Below are positions 7,417-44,389 of a DNA stretch of 64,000 nucleotides, piece after piece. Position 1 is the first letter of the stretch; every line of letters begins with the position of its first letter. The notes beneath the pieces were generated by a model. That model ran no database searches, was not told the DNA's origin, and was given only the letters and a program-made list of their open reading frames with translations. The position numbers and the translations under genes are program-made. This stretch comes from Pseudobutyrivibrio sp. YE44 (GTDB lineage: Bacteria > Bacillota > Clostridia > Lachnospirales > Lachnospiraceae), in assembly GCF_900104335.1 (NCBI RefSeq), contig NZ_FMXT01000001.1:310001-374000 (forward strand), written 5' to 3'.

Positions 7417-7563
7417 AAAAGCTGGTAGTCTTCAAGAATTGCCAGTCGGTAGACATCAAGCTCATAGGTATCTCAAGCGAAGCTTTCTTCAGCTGAGCGT
7501 AGATATCTATGGCTTGTAGGCGTAACCGACTGATTCAAGTCTTGTAGGCGTTACCAGCTTTTT
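7417..7563 (+). repeat. Nested hairpin repeat, probable terminator of the sugar transporter operon
   Basis: The outer arms AAAAGCTGGTA (7417) and TACCAGCTTTTT (7552-7563) pair and end in T, so it can act as an intrinsic terminator. Inside, a complete second unit runs from CAGTCGGTA (7443) to GTAACCGACTG (7532), with the family apex AAGCTTTCTTCAGCTGAG. The right ends CTTGTAGGCGTAACC and CTTGTAGGCGTTACC are near-duplicates, suggesting one repeat lies within another. Confidence 0.8.
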
Positions 7564-25629: not shown

Positions 25630-25668
25630 AGTTAACTAGGGTATTTGTTAACTATAGTATTTAAATGA

Positions 25669-25755
25669 GCTGGTAGTTAGCAATCTCTTAGGTTTCTCAA
25701 GCGAACCTTTCTATAGGTGAGCGGAGAAACACTAAGGATTGTTAACGTAACCAGC
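25669..25755 (+). repeat. Hairpin repeat in the leader of the DUF1292 gene
   Basis: GCTGGTA (25669) pairs with GTAACCAGC (to 25755). Inner arms TTAGCAATC-CTTAG-GTTTCTC pair with GAGAAAC-CTAAG-GATTGTTAA, and the apex is ACCT-TTCTAT-AGGT. Compared with AGCT-TTCTTC-AGCT at the copies at 7417 and 38311, both sides of the apical stem changed together. The unit ends seven bases before the GGAG ribosome site. The flanks TTTAAATGAGCTGGTA and TTGGAGAT are shared with the 38311 copy. Confidence 0.85.
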
Positions 25756-25776
25756 GGATTTGGAGATGAATTTAGT

Positions 25777-33097: not shown

Positions 33098-33400
33098 ATG
33101 GATAGTTCAATCAGCTTGATTATTTGGGTCGTAGTACTTTTTGTATTTATGTACTTCTTTATGATTCGTCCACAGCAGAAGGAGCAGAAGCAGAAGACAG
33201 CTATGATGTCATCTCTTGCAGTTGGCGATACAGTACTTACAACAAGTGGTTTTTATGGTGTAATCATTTCTATCCCAGACGATACAACTGTTATCGTTGA
33301 GTTCGGAAGCGATAAGCACTGCCGCATCCCAATGACTAAGAATGCCATTGCACAGGTTGAAAAGCCTGAGGATGCCGTTAAAGCAACAGACGCAAAATAA
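33098..33400 (+). CDS. yajC: Preprotein translocase subunit YajC
   Basis: A 100-residue membrane protein: one N-terminal helix (LIIWVVVLFVFMYFFMIRP) followed by the family segment QQKEQKQKTAMMSSLAVGDTV and a small soluble domain. YajC associates with SecDF and the Sec channel. It lies after tgt, the classic tgt-yajC order. The 3' end and its terminator form one outer arm of the giant palindrome. Confidence 0.96.
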   Translation: MDSSISLIIWVVVLFVFMYFFMIRPQQKEQKQKTAMMSSLAVGDTVLTTSGFYGVIISIPDDTTVIVEFGSDKHCRIPMTKNAIAQVEKPEDAVKATDAK

Positions 33401-33413
33401 CATTCAAACACAT

Positions 33414-33446
33414 CGGCCCACGGAATATTCCGTGGGCCGCTTTTTT
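33414..33446 (+). terminator. Terminator of yajC, left end of the giant palindrome
   Basis: CGGCCCACGGAA-TA-TTCCGTGGGCCG followed by C and six T, continuing as CTCTTTTTC. The same CGGCC...GGCCGCTTTTTTCTC text occurs in the opposite orientation at 34065-34093. Confidence 0.93.
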
Positions 33447-33471
33447 CTCTTTTTCTATATTGTCCTCACAC

Positions 33472-34041
33472 CTGCCTGCCTCCCGGCCCGCCCCCTAACA
33501 CCACAGCTATATATTCAGTCTCAAAATAATGTTTCTCTAAATGCTGCATGTCGCTTTCTTTATTGTAGTTTTCTTTTCAATTCGTTGCACTTTTATCGCT
33601 ACTGTATGCATTGCGCAGACACACACTATTGTTAGTAATGCTCTCCATCAGAGGATATGCCTATCAGTTGTTGGAATTTGTAATGCGCTTAGTAAAATAA
33701 AAAGCAGGTTTTGTATGTATAGGCAGCAGTCGCTAGGACGGCGGCTGCAGTGGTCACTTGATACACGATGTTGAATGTGCCACGGTGCCTATACATTCAA
33801 AACCTGCTTTTTTAATTTTACTTAGCAAATGGAGTATGGAAACAACTGATAGGCATATCCTCTGATGGAGAGCATTATATAAGCTTTTATGTGTCTGTGC
33901 TATACATACAGTAGCTTCAAAGTGCAACACCAATGAAAAGACAACTACGTAAAGCTCCATTTGCAGCATTAAGAGAAACTATTATTTTGTTCCGATTCAT
34001 ATATAGCTGTGGTGTTAGGGGGCGGGCCGGGAGGCAGGCAG
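33472..34041. repeat. Giant imperfect palindrome, copy 1 (570 bp)
   Basis: The 43 bases at 33472-33514 are exactly complementary to 33999-34041 (GC-rich stem starting CTGCCTGCCTCCCGG). Further matched arm blocks follow inward, such as ATGCTCTCCATCAGAGGATA on the left and its complement on the right, separated by unmatched internal loops. The centre is a conserved branched core at 33699-33813. It fills the gap between convergent genes. No credible gene lies within; the short open frames are by-products of the symmetry. Homologous, inverted, to the element at 43757. It may be a large structured RNA, a DNA hairpin or a foldback mobile element. Confidence 0.9.
33699..33813. other. Conserved branched core of palindrome copy 1
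   Basis: AAAAAGCAGGTTTTG...TATAGG pairs with CCTATA...CAAAACCTGCTTTTT. Enclosed are two hairpins: GCAGTCGC/GGCGGCTGC (33726-33748) and GTGGTCAC...GTGCCAC. This is the best conserved part between the two copies. Because the stem carries an A-run before and a T-run after, it could also act as a two-way terminator. Confidence 0.75.
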
Positions 34042-34064: not shown

Positions 34065-34093
34065 AAAAAAGCGGCCACAGATAAATGTGGCCG
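34065..34093 (-). terminator. Terminator of the DUF1113-like gene, right end of palindrome copy 1
   Basis: On the minus strand: CGGCCACA-TTTATC-TGTGGCCG, then C and six T, continuing CTCTTTTTCTA, as on the opposite side of the palindrome. Confidence 0.9.
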
Positions 34094-34103
34094 ATGTGGA
34101 ATG

Positions 34104-34961
34104 TTATTTTGTTTTCTTGCGGAGGAACTCAGAGCCTTTGTCGAGGAGGGCTTTGGTGGAGGCTACGGGGTGGGTGAACTTCGCGATGTGACGGAACTGG
34201 CCACGTTGGGTTTCGGTGGCATTTAACACCCACTGTTTAACGGCCTCGGTTGAGAGCTGCTCCTTGAGTTCGGCTATTCGTTCAGCGTTCATTTCCTTCT
34301 TGAGGATAGCGGCTTCTTTTCGTTCGTTGGCTTTTTCAAGACGGGCTATTTTAGCGTCGGCGCGGCTGATTTGCCAAGCCTCGATGCGCTCGGCCATCTG
34401 GGTGTTGATTTGTTCGTTGATGCGCTCAAATTCCTTGGCGAAGCTTGTGATGGCAGAGACGGTAAGAGCCATATCCATTCCAAATAGAAACATAAATATA
34501 AGTGCAAATAACTCAACGATTACTGATGGAATAAGGGATATGCTGTACACGATTGGTGGAATGATTAGTTGAGTAACAATGATTCCTGCAAATCCGAAGC
34601 ATATAGTGAAGGGGATGCATACGCGTCCGTTGATGTTTAGTGGAAATTCTCCGTAATCCCACCATCTGGCGTTGAAGCGTTTTTCCAGTATGTAGGAAGT
34701 TCCATATTCTAGGAAGAAGGATCCGATGGAGCATCCTAAAAAGATTATTGCTAAATGTGGCTTTACGGATAAATGGTTTGGTATATCTACGAATATGATT
34801 TGTGCTAGAGTGGCGCCTGCACCGTATAGCGGGATGCATGGGCCGTAAAGAAAACCTCGATTTTCCCAGGCTTTTTCGTGGATTGTACAAAAGCAGGTCT
34901 CGTATATCCAGCCTAAGAAACTATATATAATAAAATAAACGAAATACTTCGAAACTATCAT
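34104..34961 (-). CDS. Putative ABC transporter permease-like membrane protein
   Basis: A 285-residue membrane protein. The N-terminal part (YFVYFIIYSFLGWIYETCFC, RGFLYGPCIPLYG, LEYGTSYILEKRF, WWDYGEFPLNINGRVCIPF) matches the putative ABC-transporter type IV (DUF1113, CmpB-like) family with about five helices. A long charged helical tail follows (residues about 185-285, AERIEAWQISRADAKIARLEK). The frame is open further upstream, but ATG 34961 has a GGAGG ribosome site and gives the family N terminus. Function unknown. Transcribed towards yajC. Confidence 0.8.
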   Translation of the reverse strand: MIVSKYFVYFIIYSFLGWIYETCFCTIHEKAWENRGFLYGPCIPLYGAGATLAQIIFVDIPNHLSVKPHLAIIFLGCSIGSFFLEYGTSYILEKRFNARWWDYGEFPLNINGRVCIPFTICFGFAGIIVTQLIIPPIVYSISLIPSVIVELFALIFMFLFGMDMALTVSAITSFAKEFERINEQINTQMAERIEAWQISRADAKIARLEKANERKEAAILKKEMNAERIAELKEQLSTEAVKQWVLNATETQRGQFRHIAKFTHPVASTKALLDKGSEFLRKKTK

Positions 34962-35099
34962 AACCTTGTCCTCCAACACATAAGTATAATAGATGTGGGG
35001 CATAAATAAAATGCATAGGGGAAAGTTCATAGAAATTTACGATTATTGTTGTATTATAAATATACCTATAGGTGTGTTTTTATATGGGTGGTGATATTT

Positions 35100-38276: not shown

Positions 38277-38310
38277 TTTTTAGATTTAAATTAATTAAAT
38301 TTTTAAATGA

Positions 38311-38397
38311 GCTGGTAAGTAACAATCTCTTAGGTTCCTTTTGAGAAGCTTTCTTCAGCTGAAAAAAGAAACACTAAGGATTGTTACTGTAACCAGC
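38311..38397 (+). repeat. Hairpin repeat in the leader of smpB
   Basis: GCTGGTAAGTAACAATC (38311) pairs with GATTGTTACTGTAACCAGC (to 38397). The inner CTTAG/CTAAG pair matches and the apex is AGCT-TTCTTC-AGCT. It ends a few bases before CTTGGAG, the smpB ribosome site, exactly as the copy before the DUF1292 gene does. It may regulate smpB translation or be the residue of a mobile repeat. Confidence 0.85.
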
Positions 38398-38415
38398 GTA
38401 CTTGGAGATTATGTA

Positions 38416-39615: not shown

Positions 39616-39954
39616 GGGCTAGTCATGGTTTCGACAGGGGTCATGCAGCGGAAGAAGCGAGTCCCACGGCGATGGGTTAAATGGCCAAACTTAAAATTAA
39701 ACGCTAACGATAATTTAGCATACGCTGCCTAGTTGCGGCAGTCTGACCTAGGGCACCTACACCTTAGGACCCAGACTTCGACTTTGTAGGAAACGACGCT
39801 ATCTAAGCTTTGCGATAGTGGGCGTATCATGAAGCTACTAAAGCATGCAGCCTGTTTGTGGGCGTCATGTGGAGGGAATGTAAAAATGCAAACTACACTC
39901 GTAGAAGGGCCGGGAATTGGCTTTTGGACACGGGTTCGACTCCCGTCTAGTCCA
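39616..39954 (+). ncRNA. ssrA: Transfer-messenger RNA (tmRNA, ssrA)
   Basis: The 5' end GGGCTAG pairs with the 3' end CTAGTCC as the acceptor stem. The 5' motif GGTTTCGACAGGGGTC and the 3' T-arm GGGTTCGACTCCCG are diagnostic. The tag frame GCT AAC GAT AAT TTA GCA TAC GCT GCC TAG at 39703-39732 encodes ANDNLAYAA, giving AANDNLAYAA with the alanine carried by tmRNA. The 3' CCA is not encoded. It rescues stalled ribosomes with SmpB; tagged proteins go to ClpXP-type proteases. Confidence 0.98.
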
Positions 39955-39960
39955 CTTTAT

Positions 39961-43694: not shown

Positions 43695-43702
43695 CTAAAC
43701 TC

Positions 43703-43736
43703 AAAGAGCCCTTTAAATTCTTAGGGGCTCTTTTTT
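43703..43736 (+). terminator. Terminator of the GH25 gene, left end of palindrome copy 2
   Basis: AAAGAGCCC and GGGCTCTTT stem with a 13-base loop, followed by further T. Mirrored by the terminator at 44346-44379. Confidence 0.9.
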
Positions 43737-43756
43737 GATGCCTTATTCCTTATATT

Positions 43757-44325
43757 CCCCTGGCCCTCCCCACCGGGCCGCCCTTAGTACTTCTGTGTCA
43801 TGATTGACAATGAATTTTGTATTTTCTTAATGCTACAAACTAGCTTTCAGTAGGTGTCTTTTAATTGGTGTTGCACTTTGAAGCTACTGTATGCATAGCT
43901 CAAACACCTTTTAGCTTAATTAATGCTCCCCTCAGTGTATATAACTATCAGTTGCTTCCATACTCCGTTTGCTAAGTAAAATTAAAAAAGCAGGTTTTGA
44001 ATGTATAGTCACCGTGGTACATTCAACATCGTGTCTCAAGTAACCACTGCAGCCGCCATCCTAGCGGCTGCTGCCTATACATACAAAACCTGCTTTTTAT
44101 TTTACTAAGCGCACTACAAATTCCAGCAACTGATAGTTATATACACTGAGGGGGAGCATTACAAAAAATAGCGTGTGTTTGAGCAATGCAAACTGTAGCG
44201 CTAAAAGTGCAATGAATTTAAAAGACAGCTACAATAAAGAAAGCGCAGTGTAGCATTTAGAAAATACAAATTCTTTGGCTTTGACACAGAAGTACTAAGG
44301 GCGGCCCGGTGGGGAGGGCCAGGGG
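43757..44325. repeat. Giant imperfect palindrome, copy 2 (569 bp, inverted relative to copy 1)
   Basis: Bases 43757-43800 are exactly complementary to 44282-44325, a 44-bp GC-rich stem beginning CCCCTGGCCCTCCCC. This sequence differs from the copy 1 stem although each is self-complementary. Matched inner blocks include CCTCAGTGTATATAACTATC on both arms. The arm-specific loops show the orientation: the left arm here (TCCATACTCC...TTGCTAAGTAAA) corresponds to the right arm of copy 1, and the reverse. It fills a convergent intergenic gap, and no gene was found inside. Confidence 0.9.
43984..44099. other. Conserved branched core of palindrome copy 2
   Basis: Reverse complement of the copy 1 core with a handful of differences, at least one of them compensated: the hairpin pair GGTCAC/GTGCC of copy 1 is GGTTAC/GTACC here, and CAGTCGC/GGCGGCTG becomes CAGCCGC/GGCGGCTG. 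Confidence 0.75.
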
Positions 44326-44345
44326 ATTGTTGAGTTTGAGGCATC

Positions 44346-44379
44346 AAAAAAGAGCCATCCAAGGCTTGGAGGGCTCTTT
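44346..44379 (-). terminator. Terminator of the aminotransferase gene, right end of palindrome copy 2
   Basis: On the minus strand: CAAAGAGCCCTCCAAGC-CTTGGATGGCTCTT with a T-run after it, followed by GATGCC as on the opposite side. Confidence 0.9.
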
Positions 44380-44389
44380 GAGATTGTGG

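Follow-up and report, generated by a model that had tools for sequence, protein, structure and literature searches.

The window, by which we mean the whole stretch of 64,000 nucleotides analysed here, contains two palindromes of almost equal length, each flanked by two transcription terminators, one per neighbouring convergent gene. The features of both loci are as follows.

33098..33400, + strand: ORF called yajC in the original prediction, left convergent neighbour of copy 1
33413..33447, + strand: terminator that follows yajC, the left one of two twins; limits judged by eye
33472..34041, + strand (that of the RNA core): element copy 1, whole palindrome, 570 bp
33472..33514, no strand: left arm of copy 1, perfect 43-bp outer stem, C-rich, 63% GC
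33515..33676, no strand: left inner arm of copy 1, matched blocks and loops, conserved between copies
33677..33837, + strand: TwoAYGGAY RNA core of copy 1, RF01731, 51.2 bits (cut-off 43)
33838..33998, no strand: right inner arm of copy 1
33999..34041, no strand: right arm of copy 1, perfect outer stem
34065..34095, − strand: terminator that follows the 308-aa ORF, the right one of the twins; limits judged by eye
34104..35030, − strand: 308-aa ORF, right convergent neighbour of copy 1, which served to find orthologous sites
43700..43737, + strand: left one of the twin terminators that flank copy 2; limits judged by eye
43757..44325, − strand (that of the RNA core): element copy 2, whole palindrome, 569 bp
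43757..43800, no strand: left arm of copy 2, perfect 44-bp outer stem, 68% GC
43960..44121, − strand: TwoAYGGAY RNA core of copy 2, RF01731, 55.3 bits
44282..44325, no strand: right arm of copy 2, perfect outer stem
44340..44382, − strand: right one of the twin terminators that flank copy 2; limits judged by eye

Counted inward from the termini, copy 1 (33472-34041, 570 nt) forms 43 perfect pairs and copy 2 (43757-44325, 569 nt) forms 44. By a rough estimate, the chance of a perfect 43-bp inverted repeat at such spacing in 64 kb is about 3e-17. Stretches slightly longer than the elements themselves were folded, giving −366 kcal/mol for the 634 nt around copy 1 against a shuffle mean of −160 (20 shuffles; z −42), and −387 kcal/mol for the 691 nt around copy 2 against −180 (20 shuffles; z −29). 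The limits and the perfectly self-complementary stems of the original prediction are borne out; it had also described the second copy as having the same plan, a nearly equal length and a different stem that remains self-complementary. This description holds, as the interiors of the two copies are 85% identical, whereas their left stems, compared with both cores set to +, are 55% identical. Since the latter value falls within the range of shuffled stems (mean 50%, maximum 64%), the outer stems of copies 1 and 2 are unrelated in sequence. Copy 2 is inverted relative to copy 1. The GC content is 63% and 68% in the stems of copies 1 and 2 and 38% and 37% in the remainder, the window as a whole having 39%. 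Beyond both palindromes the arms extend outward with mismatches, through one terminator on each side; the two terminators of a pair have a common outer stem and unlike loops (by eye). An ORF check found no transposase gene within either copy: copy 1 is overlapped by ORFs of 71, 77 and 97 aa, the last of which starts outside it, and copy 2 has no ORF of 60 aa or more inside.

The window also holds a tmRNA gene (39616-39957, tag ANDNLAYAA) and a smaller second repeat at 1171-1205, 7448-7496, 25660-25767 and 38302-38409, which resembles, by eye only, hairpins within terminators of relatives (L137, L277, L282). The comparison of locus L137 in genome G022 with the empty L131 in G012 suggests that this smaller repeat inserted into a terminator loop.

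The TwoAYGGAY core and its distribution

The cores of both palindromes match RF01731, the TwoAYGGAY family, over positions 1-168 of the model with 51.2 and 55.3 bits, the gathering cut-off being 43. The claim that the element belongs to no named RNA class hence fails for the core; it stands for ROOL, GOLLD, OLE and HEARO, which have no match in the window, where only the tmRNA and RF01731 reach the Rfam cut-off. RF01731 is typed as cis-regulatory in Rfam. The passages on the motif in its 2010 description (PMC2864571) regard it as probably an RNA and probably not cis-regulatory, and place it in the human gut, gammaproteobacteria and Clostridiales. In the portion of the open-licence literature that was searched, no tie between TwoAYGGAY and a mobile element was found.

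That the core is a CsrA sponge, and the element a mobile post-transcriptional regulator, seems to us unlikely. It would agree with the CsrA-binding role proposed for TwoAYGGAY on motif grounds in the relevant part of PMC4333381, with the strand-specific fold of the core described below, and with the core of L194 (G002), which has two ATGGAC motifs and to which the ortholog L206 of G003 reads alike (by eye). CsrA is present in 28 of 29 Pseudobutyrivibrio genomes; these, however, include both genomes that have no TwoAYGGAY match, and in copy 1 of the window AYGGAY is absent from both hairpin loops, with GGA kept in the first loop only.

The genome of the window has at least 12 copies, because the copy at 33677 is absent from the 11 among the matches listed; six of the 12 sit between convergent genes, judging by eye from the adjoining ORFs. 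The original prediction was staked on the existence of further homologues, and these occur in 27 of the 29 Pseudobutyrivibrio genomes (49 matches in G008 alone) and in 65 of 397 sampled Lachnospiraceae genomes, the latter count being made with strict filters on six scored candidates per genome. Where two genes converge, some copies are located at the transcription terminators. In G412:C1, G036:C47 and C33, G392:C152 and G065:C123, TwoAYGGAY cores were seen in pairs that face opposite ways at a distance of about 0.1-0.9 kb. An origin in phages or plasmids was dropped, as neither the phage collection nor the plasmid collection has a match to the element.

A transposable family with terminal repeats and target duplications

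In a subfamily of G008 copies the terminal inverted repeat GTTACCATTCACAG is found on both sides of the element. The copies scanned for such ends were 117, namely a set of 101 plus 16 more of G008, with L314, which has no centre, left out; the 101-copy set itself excludes 14 loci at places that were already represented, L036, for which the strand was not seen, L092 and L190, which are truncated by contig ends, and other genera. Both ends lie within 2 mismatches of the repeat in 17 copies and within 4 in 30. Six of the 17 have 7 or 8 of 8 bp duplicated exactly at the boundary (shuffled pairings: mean 0.35, maximum 3), five of these being the copies in which the motif was first noticed and the sixth, L015 of G025, being independent; the other 11 have no clear target duplication. 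Examples of the 8-bp duplications are TCTTACTC, AAAAATCC, AATAAATT and TAGGGATT. An independent test in other genera, where 44 of 50 loci were retained, gave direct repeats of 8-10 bp at or near the arm ends in 6 of the 44 (shuffles: mean 0.28, maximum 2). After rejoining the six duplication sites, three of the duplications fall in or beside a predicted hairpin (by eye).

Comparison of occupied and short sites points in the same direction. Among 25 loci that have both neighbour genes of window site 1, 22 have a gap of just 46-212 bp, mostly with one terminator (by eye), two carry a TwoAYGGAY palindrome (G000 and G028, the core of G028 being different) and one carries an unrelated 1.3-kb insert. 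At another place, the insertion L174 of G012 interrupts a terminator within its loop; in the relative G022 this terminator is intact. Five occupied sites were set against short sites in relatives, and this is the only clean terminator split among them; at the other four the terminators differ or the site is ambiguous. As an empty site, the L193 site in G003 is ambiguous, because G007 carries a different element at this place and a loss from G003 is possible. Two further loci have the appearance of remnants: at the L196 site in G003 (L212) the core and right arm are lost and the left arm persists nearly unchanged as a fossil, and L144, the G028 ortholog of window site 2, has a GC-rich hairpin without core inside a terminator, perhaps a remnant too.

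The search for a mobiliser covered 1.50 Mb of G008 (about half of the genome, with some stretches read as N), where no transposase with GTTACCATTCACAG ends was seen, be it that of an autonomous partner or the source transposase of a foldback transposon. The same 1.50 Mb contain 12 stray matches to the terminal repeat with at most 2 mismatches, against about 10 estimated by chance; the single one with 1 mismatch, C4:41094, which is the one inspected, has no transposase-like ORF adjoining it by eye.

On the grounds of the terminal repeats, the 8-bp duplications and the terminator split by L174, the family is a transposable element, young copies of which are bounded by short terminal inverted repeats and 8-bp target duplications. 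The earlier view that no known insertion element is involved is thus right in that no transposase turned up in the 1.50 Mb of G008, and wrong in that terminal repeats and target duplications elsewhere demonstrate transposition. Copies 1 and 2 of the window have no recognisable terminal repeat, being absent from the 30 with ends within 4 mismatches; a search of the whole window at 1 mismatch found none, and no target duplications were seen for them. From the homology of their cores and arms, they are probably older copies of the same element.

Change in the arms and inversion of the core

Of the 101 copies, 77 have an outer stem, the remainder having none that passed. Its length is mostly 30-55 bp, and it lies about 205-260 nt away from where the arm alignment ends on the inner side. 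The composition of the 5′ arm in these 77 stems is A 17, C 42, G 22 and T 19%. Most copies differ in their stem, even at 95% identity of the interior, and a comparison of the 77 stems found more than 15 nt shared by orthologous copies only. Such diversity, with interiors reaching 95% identity within one genome, could mean that a special mechanism makes a new stem at each insertion and that the inner part alone is inherited. This we regard as improbable. In G008, four more places carry the L089 stem on both arms (81-88%) and five further places carry it on one arm (76-88%), the stems of L084 and L079 each recur on both arms at one place, and the sequence common to the G008 subfamily extends as far as the terminal repeat. 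Some stems, at least, are therefore inherited. Moreover, the 20 G008 copies viewed first were the best-scoring 20 of 49. A new stem at each insertion was withdrawn as a rule once G008 subfamilies with a common stem appeared.

Two other sources of the stem were discarded. A derivation from the target does not agree with the L174/G022 pair, in which the terminator stem is split and yet the 49-bp stem is new. Copying from elsewhere in the genome is not indicated by 27 stems (10 of G000, 17 of G008), which mostly match themselves and other element arms. The G008 matches not tied to listed copies (C3:154683, C6:18718/19113, C1:234239) yielded little on inspection except one arm at C6. A scan for solo hairpins in 0.79 Mb of loci and window (exact stem of at least 17 bp, loop of at most 90) found 10, none with 50% GC or more. 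In G000:C23:350603-351143 two weak matches to the L007 stem (350603/351113) lie in opposite orientation about 500 bp apart, perhaps a further copy without a listed RF01731 match. In another genus, L415, L414 and L047 (G342) have purine-rich, near-perfect stems of about 70 to more than 100 bp.

Nine related subfamily copies that share a stem and have both arms allow the two arms to be compared column by column. Of 40 stem columns 24 vary, and the arms agree in 188 of 216 variable cells (shuffle mean 154, maximum 183; 0 of 5000 reach 188); 14 columns have two states, either of which occurs in both arms of some copy. Between species, changes in both arms against changes in one arm number 7:5 for L107/L184 and 10:8 for L206/L194; at one site, they are 2:4 for L102 against L030 and 2:6 for L102 against L178; in the three closest pairs, they are 0:2, 0:4 and 0:3. 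These counts omit gap columns; counted apart were 0-9 columns per comparison, mostly outside the stem, where the arms do not agree in either species. Given this mixture of two-arm and one-arm changes, concerted change of the arms is real but incomplete. The statement that both arms change together hence holds, though not in every case.

Paired change is commonly regarded as the strongest sign that an RNA is functional, and the whole 570-nt structure could be a giant RNA in which selection on pairing keeps the arms matched. The very stable fold, the arms that change together and the RNA-like strand preference of the core all speak in its favour. If RNA pairing were selected on the core strand, arm mismatches should be G-U more often on that strand than on the other. 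Across the 101 copies, the outer-arm mismatches are G-U in 70 cases on the RNA strand versus 88 on the opposite strand, and the inner-arm mismatches in 142 versus 118; the arms have no wobble bias toward the RNA strand. Folding of 81 of the 101 copies (those with an arm score of at least 80 and enough flank) and of 77 stems, all related copies and thus non-independent trials, gave the better fold on the core strand for 38 versus 43 inner arms (p 0.36) and 19 versus 36 outer stems (p 0.07) when both strands were closed by the same loop. A first version, in which the loop was unlike between strands, had leaned toward the RNA strand (inner 45 versus 36, outer 48 versus 29), and this lean vanished with the same loop. 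The 80-nt core, on the other hand, folds better on the TwoAYGGAY strand in 79 of 81 copies, and at 90 nt in 76 of 81. G-U outnumbers A-C in the core by 91 to 13, a count that leans, since 66 of the 91 come from just two columns and the core strand was the one used to predict the fold. A one-strand wobble preference throughout, the mark of a large structured RNA, was therefore not found, the strand bias being present in the core only. As the element is missing at window site 1 from 22 of the 25 orthologous loci, and as the core inverts relative to its flanks, we consider a giant RNA quite improbable, and as the entire explanation it is weakened by the wobble and strand-folding tests. Selection on RNA structure is supported for the small core only, which might conceivably be transcribed and act as an RNA.

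The orientation of the core relative to the flanks is unlike at 6 of 9 sites that are occupied in at least two species and have both flanks aligned. In three orthologous sets (L030/L178, L016/L017, L206/L194) the outer loops stay in place, the inner loops have changed sides and the stem is recognisably common, which places the inversion breakpoints in the stem. The remaining three sets (L010/L040, L078/L110, L195/L199) differ by loss or replacement of the stem or interior, and may reflect a second insertion instead of an inversion. Taken as a whole, outer-stem changes tend to hit both arms, and inversion of the core has taken place within the stem. A dedicated invertase or a REP-type Y1 transposase that flips or moves the element would account for the orientations at these six sites, but it is hardly credible, as Y1_Tnp (PF01797) was found in 10 of 29 genomes and is missing from the other 19, among them G008 with its 49 copies, the breakpoints lie in stem sequence that varies from site to site, and 8-bp duplications are at odds with Y1 transposition.

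Proposed mechanism and known systems

The original prediction had left two causes for the paired arms, selection on a large structure and correction of the arms within each copy. The wobble counts and the inverted cores go against a large RNA, and within-copy correction is the better supported: with no wobble bias in the arms and a core inverted inside a shared stem, DNA copying from arm to arm fits better than a giant RNA under selection. Paired changes would also arise by compensatory selection on DNA structure, which is neutral as to strand. We propose, with a probability of nearly four in five, that the palindromes of the window are a non-autonomous, MITE-like element of about 600 bp centred on TwoAYGGAY, the arms of which are copied onto each other. 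In the model, a transposase supplied in trans would move the element. Template switching of the DNA polymerase, or recombination, between the arms would copy one arm onto the other and would sometimes flip the sequence between them. The arms would in this way be corrected against each other and not against other copies and, because correction takes place within a copy, each copy would drift to a stem of its own and yet stay self-complementary. Arm homogenisation together with spacer inversion is described as a signature of template switching between inverted repeats in the pertinent part of PMC8604942, and the creation and upkeep of hairpins by this process in that of PMC8794818; on the pattern of the sequences, template switching between the arms would be the likeliest mechanism.

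Several observations weigh against this MITE-like, arm-copying reading: (i) the window copies have no recognisable terminal repeat, and 11 of the 17 copies with good ends have no clear duplication; (ii) the 1.50 Mb of G008 contain no transposase with these ends; (iii) one-arm changes of the stem also occur; (iv) unrelated stems around 95%-identical interiors exceed what drift at the rate observed among sister species would produce, and (v) an 8-bp duplication does not account for the twin terminators. The twin terminators, the GC-rich, C-biased stem and the unrelated stems at 5% interior divergence could possibly be due to arm copying into flanking DNA, repair bias and interior exchange. The interior of L199 is 94% identical to that of L193 at another place and 80% identical to that of its ortholog L195.

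More speculatively, RF01731 may be the heart of a Lachnospiraceae transposable element that spreads an RNA through intergenic sites, its arms forming a self-correcting and self-diversifying palindrome. Near-perfect pairing would be kept and yet the stems would be private, so that recombination between copies would be reduced; the RNA could be flipped, and other orphan Rfam motifs may be alike. The findings in any case recast an Rfam family of unknown function as part of a mobile element, which alters what to test for RF01731. The dozens of natural copies offer paired change over a 40-50-bp stem with no RNA strand bias, beside a core that has such bias, and this contrast is a built-in control on how much covariation is mutational.

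Among known systems, the closest at the centre of the element is TwoAYGGAY (RF01731) itself: the core spans all 168 positions of the model above the cut-off. It differs in that the Rfam family is typed cis-regulatory whereas the core described here sits inside a mobile palindrome, and in that the name-giving loops have decayed in window copy 1. The REP/BIME and ERIC-type palindromes are, like the element, intergenic, repeated and hairpin-forming, but they are much smaller, and the Y1 transposases on which REP depends are missing from G008. Template-switched quasipalindromes share the homogenised arms and inverted spacers (PMC8604942) and the creation and upkeep of hairpins (PMC8794818), as far as the sections on these points go; the yeast arms treated there have at most 16 bp and short spacers, whereas here stems of about 40-50 bp are separated by about 480 bp. 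The mitochondrial palindromes of Nematomorpha have long perfect arms (up to 284 bp), for which template switching is discussed in the corresponding part of PMC6649704; they lie inside coding genes, in contrast to a repeated, intergenic element. Like the element, MITEs, as characterised in the passages of PMC10969869 devoted to them, are small, have no transposase gene, and have terminal inverted repeats, target duplications and many copies; stable stem-loop transcripts are also described for them there. In contrast to MITEs, the element is an inverted repeat over almost its full length, most copies having a long GC-rich stem of their own; it bears a conserved Rfam RNA at its tip with the core in both orientations, and the 1.50 Mb of G008 yielded no partner transposon. 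What lies in the window is thus probably a MITE-like carrier of an Rfam RNA.
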